A DNA stretch of 44,503 bases from a virus, in the IMG/VR virus record IMGVR_UViG_3300005518_000009, positions 1 to 44,503 of that record. One strand, 5' to 3'. The position numbers and the translations under genes were made by a program. The notes under the pieces are model-generated. The model was not told the origin of the DNA, ran no database searches, and saw only the letters and a list, made by a program, of their open reading frames with translations. Shown here piece by piece: positions 5,416 to 42,381 of this stretch. Numbering within the stretch: the first letter of the stretch is position 1; the number at the start of each line of letters is the position of its first letter.

Positions 5416-5603
5416 TGCCGGATCCCGGTCACGAGAACTTGATTCGCGATCTCGAAGAGCTCCTTCAAGGCGCGAAGGCCTTCGAGTTTCACGACTTCAA
5501 GAACGAGAAGCACGCCGCGCCGAAGGTCGCGCTCTATAAGCAGCTGCACTACCTGGCTGAGCAGGTGAAACGGGGCCGGTACGACAACGACGAGAGGTCC
5601 TAA
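5415..5603 (+). CDS. Small hypothetical protein
   Basis: A 62-residue protein from ATG 5415, directly coupled to the stop of the preceding Cys-rich gene. The sequence is helical and charged (LIRDLEELLQGAKAFEFHDF, then ALYKQLHYLAEQVKRGRYD). It shows no recognisable motif. It immediately precedes the Acb2/Tad1-like gene, so it may belong to the same accessory or anti-defence cassette. That link is by position only. Confidence 0.45.
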   Translation: MPDPGHENLIRDLEELLQGAKAFEFHDFKNEKHAAPKVALYKQLHYLAEQVKRGRYDNDERS

Positions 5604-5824
5604 TGCCGTTTACGCGCGAGCAACTGATCGACCTGTTCACCTACCACGCGCCGACGCCCGACCAGGTCGAGGACTACCAGGCGATCCGGACCGCGGCGCT
5701 CGAATTCGCCAGTGTCATCTGCGAGCACACGCCGGCGAGCGCCGATCAAACCGTCGCGATTCGGAAACTGCGGGAGGCCGTGCATATCGCCAACGCAGCG
5801 ATCGCGCTCGAGGGGAAGTTTTGA
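5603..5824 (+). CDS. Acb2/Tad1 hairpin-domain-like protein, candidate anti-defence sponge
   Basis: A 73-residue protein with GAGAGG before ATG 5603. It follows the helical-hairpin pattern of the phage Acb2/Tad1 group: FTYHAPTPDQVEDYQAIR opening, a hydrophobic helix ALEFASVICEHTP, then a closing helix with KLREAVHIANAAIA. The family consensus as I recall it ends in a KLEEAVMWANAAIA-like helix. Members of that group sequester cyclic nucleotide signals made by CBASS or Thoeris defence and so blunt abortive infection. Whether this short protein binds a signal molecule, and which one, cannot be read from sequence. Its early-operon position suits an anti-defence role. Confidence 0.6.
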   Translation: MPFTREQLIDLFTYHAPTPDQVEDYQAIRTAALEFASVICEHTPASADQTVAIRKLREAVHIANAAIALEGKF

Positions 5825-5842: not shown

Positions 5843-6448
5843 ATGAGTGATGACGGACGGACGGACGGACGGACGGACGGACGGAGCAATTCTCGTGCTC
5901 ACGTCGGGATTCTTTGGTGCGCGAATCAGCGGCATCGTAAAGGCAACGGTTGGGCGTTTCCACCGAACGTGCGACGCAAACTGGTCGATCTGACGGCCAA
6001 CAAACGCGTCGGGCATTTCTTCGGGGGGCTCGCGCCGTGGGGGATTCGACTCGACGTCGATCCGGCGGTGCGGCCGCACGTGATCGGCAACGCGTGGCTC
6101 GCGCCGTTTCGACGCGACGCCTTCGACGTCGTCGTACTCGATCCGCCGTACGTGCGACTACGCGGCCAGGAGAAGCGGCGCCTGTTCGACCAAGCCGCAT
6201 GGTGCGCGCGCGAGTGGGTGATCTGGTTCCACACCGTGTGGGTCGCGGCGAACGCCGGCATGACGCTCGAGGACGCGTGGCTCGTGCGCGTCGGAGATAG
6301 TTGTCACGTGCGCTGCCTACAGGTCTTTCGCGTGGTGCGGAAGGCCTCGGCGCCGCCGGATTGTTGGGCGACTGGCGGTCCAGCGCTTCGTTACAACCGG
6401 TGGCTGACTGGTCAGCGTGGCTTGTTTCAACCTGAGGTTGTGTCGTGA
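5843..6448 (+). CDS. DPPY-motif DNA methyltransferase-like protein with N-terminal tetranucleotide repeat
   Basis: A 201-residue protein. The catalytic signature DPPY (100-103) follows a FDVVVLD strand, as in N6-adenine or N4-cytosine methyltransferases, and GGLAPWGIRLDVDP (about 61-74) resembles the cofactor-binding strand and acidic loop. It is short for a full modification enzyme and lacks an obvious target-recognition domain, so activity is likely but not certain. Its first 14 codons contain eight tandem GACG units (5852-5883), read as DGRT repeats. Gain or loss of one unit would shift the frame just after the start, the layout of phase-variable bacterial mod genes. A phage methylase would protect its DNA from host restriction. 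Confidence 0.7.
   Translation: MSDDGRTDGRTDGRSNSRAHVGILWCANQRHRKGNGWAFPPNVRRKLVDLTANKRVGHFFGGLAPWGIRLDVDPAVRPHVIGNAWLAPFRRDAFDVVVLDPPYVRLRGQEKRRLFDQAAWCAREWVIWFHTVWVAANAGMTLEDAWLVRVGDSCHVRCLQVFRVVRKASAPPDCWATGGPALRYNRWLTGQRGLFQPEVVS
5852..5883 (+). repeat. (GACG)8 tetranucleotide microsatellite
   Basis: Eight perfect consecutive GACG units, starting at codon 4 of the methyltransferase-like gene. Four is not a multiple of three, so each unit gained or lost by slippage changes the reading frame of the following DPPY domain. The repeat is read as Asp-Gly-Arg-Thr. No other tetranucleotide tract of this length was noticed in the window. Confidence 0.95.
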
Positions 6449-7176
6449 GGACACGGACGAAGAAACCGAAGAAGGTCGCGTACCGTTTCATCCCGCCCGA
6501 CGTCGGCGCCGGCCCGGCGCTCTACGCGCTGCTGCGCGACCTCGTCGATGCCCATCATCCCGAGCTCGCCGACGCGAAGATCGCACTCGCGTGGAATCGC
6601 TCGTGGCAGCCCGACGTTGATGGGCGCGTCACGCTCGGCCAATGTAAGAAGGTGGGAGACCTCGAGCGGGAAGTCGCCGACCTCGCCGGCTACGACTTCA
6701 TCATCATCCTGCGCCAGGTGTTCTGGGACGACGAGATGGTGACCGACCAGCAGCGACGCGCGCTGCTCGATCACGAACTCTGTCACGCCGCGGTGAAACT
6801 CGACGAGCACGGCGATCCCGTGATCGACGAGCGCGGGCGGACGGTCTATCGCCTCCGGAAACACGACGTCGAAGAGTTCACCGCGATCTCGGAGCGTTAC
6901 GGCTGCTGGAAGAGTGACCTCGAGGCCTTCGCGCGAGCGCTCGAGCGCGCCCGTCACGACGATCGCTGGGTCGGGTATCGCTCGCTCCAGGAGCAACTAC
7001 GCGTCGCCGGCGCGAGCTTGCCGCTCGAGGTGATCACGGAGTGGACGGAGGCGCAGCGGAGGGAAGCGAGTCGCTGGGCGCGCATGCGTCAGGACTTCCC
7101 GAAATTCTTCGACGCGCTGCCGGCGTTTATCGCCGGCGCGATCCCCACGGAGGCACCGTCAAAGGAGGTGGTCTAG
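6445..7176 (+). CDS. Putative phage metallopeptidase (HELCH zincin)
   Basis: A 243-residue protein from GTG 6445, coupled by GTGA to the methyltransferase-like stop. ALLDHELCHAAV gives an HExxH zinc site (H110, E111, H114), and EEFTAISERYG about 30 residues later could supply the third ligand. The YDFIIILRQVFWDD stretch before it and the LLDHELCH context fit the phage putative-metallopeptidase family, whose substrates are unknown. The C-terminal third is helical. It is one of three HExxH proteins in this genome. The following gene has a very strong ribosome site that overlaps its 3' end. Confidence 0.7.
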   Translation: MRTRTKKPKKVAYRFIPPDVGAGPALYALLRDLVDAHHPELADAKIALAWNRSWQPDVDGRVTLGQCKKVGDLEREVADLAGYDFIIILRQVFWDDEMVTDQQRRALLDHELCHAAVKLDEHGDPVIDERGRTVYRLRKHDVEEFTAISERYGCWKSDLEAFARALERARHDDRWVGYRSLQEQLRVAGASLPLEVITEWTEAQRREASRWARMRQDFPKFFDALPAFIAGAIPTEAPSKEVV

Positions 7177-7914: not shown

Positions 7915-8535
7915 ATGGGACGTGTCTACGACCACATCGAACTGATCGGCCCGCGCGTGCTCGTGCGGCCGCTCCCGGATCTCGAATTCATGGCCGACGG
8001 TCTGCTGGTGAAACCCGACTCCGCGCGCCACACGCAGAACCGCGCCGTCGTCGAGAAGGTCGGTCCGGGCGAGCTCCTCACGGACGGGAAGGCCCGCCGC
8101 GGTATGCCGTTCGGCGCCGGCGACTTGGTGTTCTATCAGAAATTCGCCGGCACCTACGTCACACTCGACGACGTCGATCGGCTCATGCTGCTCGAGGATG
8201 AAATTCAGGGCCGCGTCCCTGCGACGTTCGTGAAACTGATCGCCCACACGCATGCCGACGCCACGGATATTGAACGGCGCGTGCGTGCGCTCGATGCCGA
8301 CGGCACTGGTCCCACGTTCACCGCGACAGAACACCTGGAGGGCGAGCCGTGTTTGATGTGCCACGAGATGGCGACGCTCGAGGAGCGGGAGCGCAGGGCA
8401 CGCGACGCGAAGAGCAACCTCGAGACGATGCGCGAGCAGCTCCGCCAATCGCGCCAACAGAACGCGAGCGATTCTTCACCGACACCAGTCCCGACGTCGG
8501 GCTCTATGGACGACGACGGGTTGAGTTCACGGTGA
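7915..8535 (+). CDS. GroES-like co-chaperonin with C-terminal extension
   Basis: A 206-residue protein with GTGGAGG upstream of ATG 7915. Residues about 8-100 follow the Cpn10/GroES fold: IGPRVLVRPLP opening strand, a loop with GLLVKPDSA where GroES carries its hydrophobic GroEL-binding tripeptide, VVEKVGPG, FGAGDLVFYQKFAGTYV, and a closing LMLLEDEI. That is the size of a whole GroES subunit. The remaining hundred residues are extra: a CLMC pair near 143 and a charged coiled coil (ATLEERERRARDAKSNLE). Phage GroES relatives such as T4 gp31 adapt the host chaperonin for capsid folding. A comparable role is likely here but inferred. Confidence 0.75.
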   Translation: MGRVYDHIELIGPRVLVRPLPDLEFMADGLLVKPDSARHTQNRAVVEKVGPGELLTDGKARRGMPFGAGDLVFYQKFAGTYVTLDDVDRLMLLEDEIQGRVPATFVKLIAHTHADATDIERRVRALDADGTGPTFTATEHLEGEPCLMCHEMATLEERERRARDAKSNLETMREQLRQSRQQNASDSSPTPVPTSGSMDDDGLSSR

Positions 8536-37295: not shown

Positions 37296-37885
37296 GTCAA
37301 TATTTATTGACGGTCCTCTCGATACTGCTGATCGCCGCGCCGGCGGCCGCCGAGAATTGCCCGGTCAAACATCCGGCGCTGACGGCCCTTGATCATGCCT
37401 CGATGCTCGCGGCCTACACGGCGAGCTTCCGCGGAATCTACGGGCGCAACCCGACGATGGCTGTCGGGAGCGGCGTCGACGACGGCAACTACTGGATCGC
37501 GGTGAGCGATCACTACGGGGAGTTCGGCGACAGCATCTGTCGGGCAGGTTGGAACGCGTACTGGGAAACGAAACTCGCCACGGGCCAGGACGCGGTGAAT
37601 CCGACGCTCGGCGATCAGCCGGCCAGATTTCAGCCTGAGAGTACGCCGCCGCCCGTCGTGATTCCACCGCCGCCGCCCACGCCGCCGCCGGTCACGCCGC
37701 CGGTTGTCGCGGCCGATAACACGGCCGTGCTTGCGGCCATCGCCGATTTGAAAGCGACGATGCAGGCCGAGCACGCCGAGCAAACCAACGCGGTCAAGAC
37801 CATTGGCCGGTTCCTCGCCGACCACTGGTCCACGATCGCCGCCGGCATCGGGGCGTACCTCGCTGGGCATCAGGTCGGCAAATGA
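37292..37885 (+). CDS. Exported lysis-region protein with Pro-rich hinge and C-terminal hydrophobic helix
   Basis: A 197-residue protein overlapping the endolysin stop. It has a signal peptide (TVLSILLIAAPAAA-EN), a Cys-containing globular domain, a long Pro-rich hinge (about 115-150), then a helix and a hydrophobic C-terminal segment (STIAAGIGAYLAG). No lipobox is visible. An exported domain joined by a rigid linker to a second membrane-contacting segment recalls a spanin-like bridge, but the globular part could equally bind or cut peptidoglycan. The two functions cannot be separated here. Confidence 0.55.
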   Translation: MSQYLLTVLSILLIAAPAAAENCPVKHPALTALDHASMLAAYTASFRGIYGRNPTMAVGSGVDDGNYWIAVSDHYGEFGDSICRAGWNAYWETKLATGQDAVNPTLGDQPARFQPESTPPPVVIPPPPPTPPPVTPPVVAADNTAVLAAIADLKATMQAEHAEQTNAVKTIGRFLADHWSTIAAGIGAYLAGHQVGK

Positions 37886-38370
37886 TCGTCAAGCGCGGTG
37901 CAGGACGCGAAGCAGTGAACCTGCTGCCCGGCGATGTGTTGCTCTATAAACCGAAGGGCCTCTACGGCTGGCTGATCCGGGTCAAGACGTGGCACCCGAT
38001 CGCGCACGTCGAGATCGACATGGGCGACGGGATGTCTGCGGCGAGCCGCGACGGGAAGGGACCGGGCTACTACCCGAATCGGTTCACCGACCTCGCGTAT
38101 GTGCTCCGGCCGCGCGTGCCGTTCGATCTTGCCGCGGCGAAGCGGTATGTGGATTCGACGATCGGGCTGCCCTATGGGTGGGCGGACCTGTTGAACTTCA
38201 TCGGCGTGACCATCGACGCGAGGGGCATCGTGTGCTCGCCGTTTGCGACGGAAGTCTTGCGCGCGGGCGGGGTGCCGGTGTTCAACAGCGAGCGGTCGAA
38301 TCTCATCGCGCCGTTTCAATTCCTCGATTCGGAACTCTTGCAGGACGTGACGCGGGCGGTAACGGTGTGA
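37882..38370 (+). CDS. NlpC/P60 or YiiX-type papain-like protein
   Basis: A 162-residue protein overlapping the preceding stop. LLPGDVLLYKP, then AHVEIDMGDG (H42, E44), then YGWADLLNFIG and IVCSPFATEVLRAGG (C118) match the circularly permuted papain-like group, where the His strand precedes the catalytic Cys. Relatives hydrolyse amide or thioester links in cell walls or lipids. In a lysis cassette, peptidoglycan is the likely substrate. It lacks a signal peptide. Confidence 0.7.
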   Translation: MIVKRGAGREAVNLLPGDVLLYKPKGLYGWLIRVKTWHPIAHVEIDMGDGMSAASRDGKGPGYYPNRFTDLAYVLRPRVPFDLAAAKRYVDSTIGLPYGWADLLNFIGVTIDARGIVCSPFATEVLRAGGVPVFNSERSNLIAPFQFLDSELLQDVTRAVTV

Positions 38371-40931: not shown

Positions 40932-40964
40932 GGGGGCGAAACCTTACCACCGAACCTTACCACC
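40932..40964 (+). promoter_or_regulatory. Left pair of integrase arm-type sites
   Basis: CCTTACCACC occurs at 40942-40951 and again at 40955-40964, 13 bases apart. The first copy sits within GGGGGCGAAACCTTACCACC (40932-40951), which recurs exactly on the other side of the tRNA segment at 41108-41127. Paired direct repeats on both sides of a tRNA core are the hallmark of tyrosine-integrase arm sites. Confidence 0.7.
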
Positions 40965-41049: not shown

Positions 41050-42381
41050 TCATTGAACATTCCGCCACCCTCTGTTCCGTCGTGACCGGTCGCGAGCCGG
41101 CCTTGAGGGGGGCGAAACCTTACCACCCACCTTACCACCCCACCGCGTTGACACTGGGTCTCTCAGGGACCGCCGCGGTCCGGCCGGCCGCGCGACCTTG
41201 TCGAGCTCGCCGACGGCCGCCAAGACGTGTTCCTGCACGGCGGCTTTGGCGTACATCTCGGTCAGCTTGATGTCACTGTGGCCCATCAACTCCTGCACGA
41301 CTTTCAGATCGCGGTACGCGCGGTACGCTTCGGTGCCGAAGGTGTGACGCGTCAGATCGTAGACGCGCAGCGTTGGGTCGATCAGTGGAAGCCGACGTTT
41401 GGTGCGGACCTGGTTCGCGGCTGCGATCGCACGGCGCACGGATCGGTTGAGTGATTGCCGAGAGAACGGCCGATTCGCCCCGAGCGCAAAGAAGCGCTCG
41501 AGCACCGGGAGCGCGCACGCCATCAGCGGCCGCGGTTTCGGCGCTTTGCGCGGCCGCGGCCGGCGCCGCGACGTGCGGCCCTTGCGTCTCGGTGGCGGCG
41601 TGAACGCCGGCACGTGGGGATCGATGTGCTCAGGCTGTAACGCGGCGAGCTGCTTCGGTGGCAAGCCGGTGACAAGCATCGCTTCGAAGCGAATCCGACT
41701 GAGCGATCCGCGCTCTGGCGATCCGCCTTTCGTCGGGCGCGTGATATCGGGCATGTAACTCAGGATCTCGCGGGCGAGGGCGAACGATTGGCCGCGCGGG
41801 CGCGGCGGTGGCGTGTCACACTCGGGCACGTCGCGCACCGGATTGTCGGCGCTCGGGCCATCAAGAACGGTCCACAGATTTTCCAGCGCCCGTAACCGCA
41901 GATTGACTTCCTGCGGCGAGAGCGGTACTGCCTGTTCGATCCACCGCGCCGGGTTCCCGTTGCGCTTCTCAAGCACCCGCCGCGGTCCGACGGTCAACCA
42001 GCGATCGCGCTGCGCGCGGATGTCGGCCGACGTGACGCTTGCCCGCTGGCGATCGCCGAATAGCTCCGCCCACAGTTGAATGTGACGGCGCCGCTGGGAA
42101 AATTGCGGCATCGCGGCAACGGTCTCGAGGTAGCGATCCGCATCGGCAAGAAAGCCTTCGCCCGTCGGCGGGCGCGTTTCGGCCTGCCGGCGGCGCGCTT
42201 CGACCCGCCGCTCTTCCTGCCAGTACTGGAGTTCGGTGAACGTCGCGGTTTTCGGGAACCGTTTGCTGCGCACGCGGCCCTTGGGATAGCCCGGCCACGG
42301 TACCCATTGAAAGACGCGGTACCCGATCCATCGGCCAGACCGGACGACGCGCGTGACGCCGGCCGGCAGATCGCTCGCCAT
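41050..42381 (-). CDS. int: Tyrosine-family integrase
   Basis: A 443-residue recombinase. The C-terminal catalytic domain shows LTRHTFGTEAYRAYRDLKVV, then QELMGHS and TEMYAK with the nucleophilic Tyr, the order of tyrosine recombinases. Residues about 75-180 resemble the SAM-like core-binding domain. The usual Box I arginine (TGxR) reads TGLPPKQL here, so the first catalytic Arg is not visible at its normal place. Upstream start context is ATG 42381, four bases from the xis-like stop, so the two are co-transcribed. It should integrate the phage into a host tRNA-Arg(CCT) gene using the adjacent attP. Confidence 0.85.
   Translation of the reverse strand: MASDLPAGVTRVVRSGRWIGYRVFQWVPWPGYPKGRVRSKRFPKTATFTELQYWQEERRVEARRRQAETRPPTGEGFLADADRYLETVAAMPQFSQRRRHIQLWAELFGDRQRASVTSADIRAQRDRWLTVGPRRVLEKRNGNPARWIEQAVPLSPQEVNLRLRALENLWTVLDGPSADNPVRDVPECDTPPPRPRGQSFALAREILSYMPDITRPTKGGSPERGSLSRIRFEAMLVTGLPPKQLAALQPEHIDPHVPAFTPPPRRKGRTSRRRPRPRKAPKPRPLMACALPVLERFFALGANRPFSRQSLNRSVRRAIAAANQVRTKRRLPLIDPTLRVYDLTRHTFGTEAYRAYRDLKVVQELMGHSDIKLTEMYAKAAVQEHVLAAVGELDKVARPAGPRRSLRDPVSTRWGGKVGGKVSPPSRPARDRSRRNRGWRNVQ
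41108..41139 (+). promoter_or_regulatory. Right pair of integrase arm-type sites
   Basis: CCTTACCACC at 41118-41127 and 41130-41139, a 12-base period, same orientation as the left pair. The 20-base unit GGGGGCGAAACCTTACCACC at 41108-41127 is identical to 40932-40951. The site lies inside the 3' end of the integrase gene, where it is read as GGKVGGKV, so the C-terminus of the protein is shaped by the DNA site. Confidence 0.7.

Follow-up and report, generated by a model that had tools for sequence, protein, structure and literature searches.

Can a temperate phage turn a methyltransferase on and off by gaining or losing units of a short DNA repeat? The question is raised by IMG/VR virus record IMGVR_UViG_3300005518_000009, analysed here over its whole 44,503 nucleotides (hereafter the window). 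A tandem repeat of the tetranucleotide GACG lies at 5852..5885 on the plus strand, inside the open reading frame (ORF) 5843-6448, and begins at codon 4 (GAC at 5852) of what is predicted to be a small methyltransferase gene. We lean towards the view that this tract is a slippage-prone switch, which would make the gene a candidate phase-variable methyltransferase of a temperate phage.

The original prediction had pointed to eight perfect tetranucleotide units right after the start of the gene, and Tandem Repeats Finder (TRF) bears this out with 8.5 units, 100% matches and a score of 68. In 100 dinucleotide shuffles the expected count was 0 for as few as four GACG units. The tract is the window's single perfect tetranucleotide repeat of at least 17 nt, and two control sets of other phage loci (880 kb and 521 kb) contained none. 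Lying within an ORF, the 8.5 units also exceed the cut-off of five units given for tetranucleotides when phase-variable genes are predicted from simple sequence repeats (SSRs; PMC6321876). The sequence is a metagenome consensus only, and the length or presence of the tract could in principle be an artefact of assembly. We regard this as extremely improbable: 34 nt fit within an ordinary read, the surroundings of the tract hold no other repeat, the methyltransferase ORF is intact, and the same type of tract was found in many independent contigs.

The gene (5843..6448; plus strand, as are its features given below) encodes 201 amino acids and is ON as sequenced. Searches with the protein sequence by itself did not turn up any close homolog. 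Those of Pfam, NCBIfam and PDB sequences returned only sub-threshold methyltransferase matches or chance matches, and PHROGs gave a DNA methyltransferase family at E 0.02. An alignment seeded from weak tblastn matches (HFTV1 gp68, Haloterrigena pHTUR05 and a streptococcal phage) led to 74 viral loci, 36 of which (L128-L163) are close family members with 43-62% identity on re-scoring, most of them within 43-58%; one further member sits in an Acidobacteriaceae metagenome-assembled genome (L342). Across the 15 members of the family alignment A2, 31 columns are invariant, among them the DPPY of catalytic motif IV (6140..6151), which is conserved family-wide together with a motif I-like FGG. The conserved core extends from HVGILWC to GPALRYNRWL (5900..6445). 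PHROG 11619 is matched by 10 of the 15 and PHROG 3816 by nine, both families being named DNA methyltransferase.

The AlphaFold2 model (predicted local distance difference test score, pLDDT, 73.7) has a class I methyltransferase fold and leaves no room for a recognition domain. Its top fold match is Trm11 (6zxy; Z 13.1 over 134 residues), other methyltransferases come next, and the best Foldseek E is 7.7e-4. The closest structural matches are RNA methyltransferases whereas the PHROG names refer to DNA, and the fold matches do not decide between the two substrates. Family alignment and predicted fold agree with the DPPY-motif methyltransferase-like gene that had been proposed: judged by both, the protein is a small class I S-adenosylmethionine-dependent methyltransferase of the N-methylating [DN]PP[YF] type. 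PHROG 3816/11619/954, HFTV1 gp68 and the Haloterrigena pHTUR05 methyltransferase are likewise small class I enzymes with a DPP[YF/H] motif and a similar layout, the last two with about 26-33% identity to the window protein. Unlike in the window gene, no tandem repeat was seen in their aligned N-termini.

A switch of reading frame supposes that translation crosses the repeat. Most family members start 5-20 residues before a conserved V[DEG]VLWC block, which in the window begins immediately after the tract. No in-frame ATG, GTG or TTG lies between tract and block, and the first in-frame start further down, a GTG codon inside PPNVRRK, would delete the conserved NGWxFPP segment. A start downstream of the repeat, which the original prediction had named as telling against it, was rejected on these grounds. 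With homologs beginning only a short way ahead of the core and nothing in frame to start from between tract and core, translation must, on this comparison, cross the tract, which places the true start upstream of it. Strong Shine-Dalgarno sequences were not seen at any of the candidate starts.

Varying the unit number in silico revealed an asymmetric switch. With 5, 8 or 11 units the core is open from the ATG at 5843..5845; with 6, 9 or 12 it is open from the alternative starts GTG5847/ATG5850 (5847..5852); and with 7 or 10 it is closed from every start, yielding peptides of 28-52 residues, a TGA at 5851..5853 closing the third frame just before the tract. The states thus follow the unit number modulo 3 in the order ON/ON/OFF, two of the three being ON, and 8 and 9 units are both open because two of the three frames have a start ahead of the tract. 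The slip of one unit that the original prediction saw as shifting the frame thus does not always abolish the gene: a loss to 7 units turns it OFF, but a gain to 9 units leaves it open from GTG5847/ATG5850.

If the tract is a switch, polymerase slippage would add or remove whole GACG units. At 8 units, translation from ATG5843 would give the 201-residue enzyme with its tail of DGRT repeats; at 9 the gene would remain open; at 7 or 10 each upstream start would meet an early stop and the enzyme would be lost, an OFF state that might also lower translation of a coupled metallopeptidase gene. Methylating and non-methylating genomes would in that case coexist in a population of lysogens or phages. 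Slippage at an appreciable rate and DNA as the presumed target are both parts of this proposal that we infer, and the benefit might lie, for example, in protection against host restriction or in altered gene expression of the lysogen.

Tracts of the same kind occur in other phages. Six or more GACG units were found in 30 IMG/VR contigs, in about 20 unrelated contexts, many of them without an adjoining methyltransferase. Two sites have retained the tract but with another length or unit, and with a change of frame. The first lies in L102 and L107, whose D12 adenine methyltransferase (PF02086) is the same, with 94% identity across the short part that could be compared. At the same homologous place, between a small cysteine-rich ORF and the methyltransferase gene, L102 has 26 nt (6.5 units; L102:755-780) and L107 has 34 nt (8.5 units; L107:190-223, minus strand), a two-unit difference that changes the frame, in a region with GTGA stop-start overlaps. 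The tract is not kept in other D12 homologs. The second site lies in a helix-turn-helix (HTH) gene. In L096 a single frame runs through its helical N-terminal part, a basic linker with (GACG)6.5 (L096:6366-6391) and its C-terminal part. In L145 the N-terminal part is homologous (49% over 37 residues) and (AACG)7.25 stands at the same point (L145:25-53), but the winged-helix part, an HTH_24 match that clears the Pfam cut-off, is read in a different frame from the N-terminal part.

Two further tracts lie near methyltransferase genes: (GACG)6.5 at L120:2972-2997 (copy L121), which a gap of about 10 nt separates from the start of a C5 methyltransferase (PF00145) with an ATGA overlap, and the tract at L108:10024-10050, 186 nt before the start of an N6_N4-type methyltransferase. 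L108 was not counted as a strong case on account of its wider gap. Besides the window, three among about 20 independent (GACG)n contexts are methyltransferase contexts; among 150 random phage ORFs there were at least 2 methyltransferases. Hand arithmetic gives roughly P 0.01-0.06, and that (GACG)n specifically marks methyltransferases is only suggestive. We also observed (GACG)n of 24 to 38+ nt between genes, at similar positions, in a set of AT-rich phage contigs (L103, L109, L113, L114, L118, L119, L123 and L097).

Several observations weigh against switching at the window gene. The original prediction had looked to unit counts in related phages; those of comparable tracts in other phages are divided: L102/L107 and L096/L145 show frame-changing differences, but near-identical contigs keep one fixed number, with 27 nt in all five contigs of one phage (L109, L113, L114, L119 and L123) and 26 nt in both L120 and L121. 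No second copy of the window locus was found for comparison of unit numbers, nor, among the IMG/VR records available, a strain variant with a different number, and none of the 36 viral homologs of the methyltransferase has the tract. One of the two single-unit slips from 8 units keeps the gene ON. Finally, a tract of 8 units may switch slowly, and the study that set the five-unit cut-off itself cautions that even tracts which pass its thresholds may have switching rates too low to be of consequence (PMC6321876).

The chief rival explanation is that the tract is a chance expansion within an N-terminal tail that the enzyme can do without, where a DGRT linker is tolerated, and that it is effectively fixed, without selected switching. 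It accords with the fixed numbers in identical contigs, with the many (GACG)6+ contexts that have no neighbouring methyltransferase, and with the N-terminal tails of the homologs, which are variable and unconserved besides lacking the tract; moreover, a tetranucleotide repeat of this kind encodes the same tetrapeptide, free of stops, in every frame. However, 1.4 Mb of other phage DNA holds no tetranucleotide tract of this kind, and homologous tracts have been retained in diverged phage pairs with frame-changing differences. We consider such incidental growth a serious but somewhat unlikely explanation, and still incline to the slippage-prone switch.

The 3' edge of the tracts bears on another possibility. 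Of seven independent tracts with GGA at their end, five have GCA as the next three letters, compared with about 3% for GACGGA in phage DNA. The edge GAGCA, shared by tracts in unrelated contexts, stands at 5886-5890 in the window and at the tracts of L096, L102, L104, L107 and L145, the AACG tract of L145 ending in the same way; it points to a shared origin or to a functional edge. The tract could accordingly work as RNA or as DNA, perhaps by affecting how translation is initiated or coupled: (RACG)nGGAGC provides a Shine-Dalgarno-like GGAG, and the unit number would set spacing or coupling rather than the frame. The tracts of L102, L107 and L120 are in keeping with this, as they lie just before the methyltransferase start and outside its frame, with GTGA or ATGA overlaps. 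So is the Acidobacteriaceae homolog, in which four imperfect 7-mers (GCCAGTN; L342:4240-4285) stand just before the likely start; this homolog also gives a hint of the host group, and its array of a further repeat prone to slippage. The window tract, however, lies inside the ORF and downstream of the only usable starts, and a later start would lose the conserved NGWxFPP region, which leaves a role at the RNA or DNA level quite improbable here.

A broader idea is that (RACG)n ending in GAGCA is a contingency element that recurs in the temperate phages of environmental bacteria, where it would stand within a regulator and at the 5' edge of methyltransferase genes of different kinds. Random switching of epigenetic or regulatory genes would then be a phage counterpart of the bacterial phasevarion. 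We put this forward as speculation, and think it unlikely.

The layout resembles, as had been proposed, that of phase-variable bacterial modification genes, the tract being translated at the 5' end of a methyltransferase gene. In bacterial SSR methyltransferases such as the Type III mod genes of Haemophilus, Neisseria and Moraxella, a short-unit tract likewise stands at the 5' end and the unit number sets the frame. Unlike these, the window gene encodes a single-domain phage enzyme with 8 units, no restriction partner is seen, and the switch is a candidate one. A Type III Mod protein of the modA type was itself rejected: such a protein is long, has its recognition domain in the middle and is paired with a res gene, whereas the window protein has 201 residues and no Mod match, and its neighbours are Acb2-like and metallopeptidase genes.

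Two precedents come from phages and prophages. M.Btr192IV, a prophage-encoded orphan N6-methyladenine (m6A) methyltransferase of Bibersteinia trehalosi, similarly has a tetranucleotide repeat, 12 CAAG, near its start; neither copy was expressed, and its meaning was left unclear in that study (PMC4996451). In Campylobacter phages of the genus Fletchervirus, polyG tracts make receptor-binding proteins phase-variable (Sorensen 2021, by the accounts in PMC11868660 and PMC8766974). There too, the SSR lies within a phage gene and slippage makes mixed phage populations, but the repeat is a homopolymer, the product a receptor-binding protein and the switching experimentally shown, where the window offers a tetranucleotide, a methyltransferase and an inferred switch. 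The claim that such a layout would be unusual in a phage consequently survives in narrower form. In the part of the literature that was covered, no free phage was reported to vary a methyltransferase by a tetranucleotide tract; SSRs as such have precedents in the Campylobacter phages (by way of PMC11868660) and in the prophage methyltransferase with 12 CAAG.

The carrier had been taken for a phage or prophage, and its gene content supports this. Because it has terminase, portal, head, RecT, exonuclease, replication and integrase genes, the window is, by gene content, a temperate tailed phage, the integrase (41050..42381, minus strand; phrog_1, E 2e-15) marking it as temperate. An exact 100-base repeat at both ends suggests that the genome is probably complete, and its GC content is 66%. 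The nearest whole-phage relative, G001 (17/22 compared genes), lacks the methyltransferase gene. Since the phages that carry this methyltransferase family otherwise share little with the window phage, the gene is, to judge from this distribution, a mobile accessory gene. Directly upstream of it on the plus strand, a gene with an Acb2/Tad1 hairpin domain (5603..5824; PF24729, E 1.1e-13) belongs to a family of cyclic nucleotide sponges and is a candidate gene against CBASS (cyclic oligonucleotide-based antiphage signalling system) or Thoeris. Downstream, also on the plus strand, a phage metallopeptidase gene (6445..7176; PF18894, E 1.5e-26) has a GTG start that overlaps the methyltransferase stop (GTGA), through which the two may be translationally coupled. 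Elsewhere the window holds a GroES-like co-chaperonin gene (7915-8535), a match to an enoyl-CoA hydratase-like family (37882-38370; phrog_1128) and, adjoining the integrase, two short arrays of ACCTTACCACC-type repeats (40940-40964 and 41117-41140), possibly integrase or attachment sites.

If the tract switches, a single phage genotype would give rise to both methylated and unmethylated particles or lysogens. This would amount to bet-hedging against host restriction, a strategy rarely examined in phages. The heterogeneity of phage methyltransferases would in that case be heritable, with effects on host range tests and on methylome readings of metagenomic phages. The phage pairs in which the frame at a shared tract site is different (L102/L107 and L096/L145) make the idea of switching directly testable from existing long reads.
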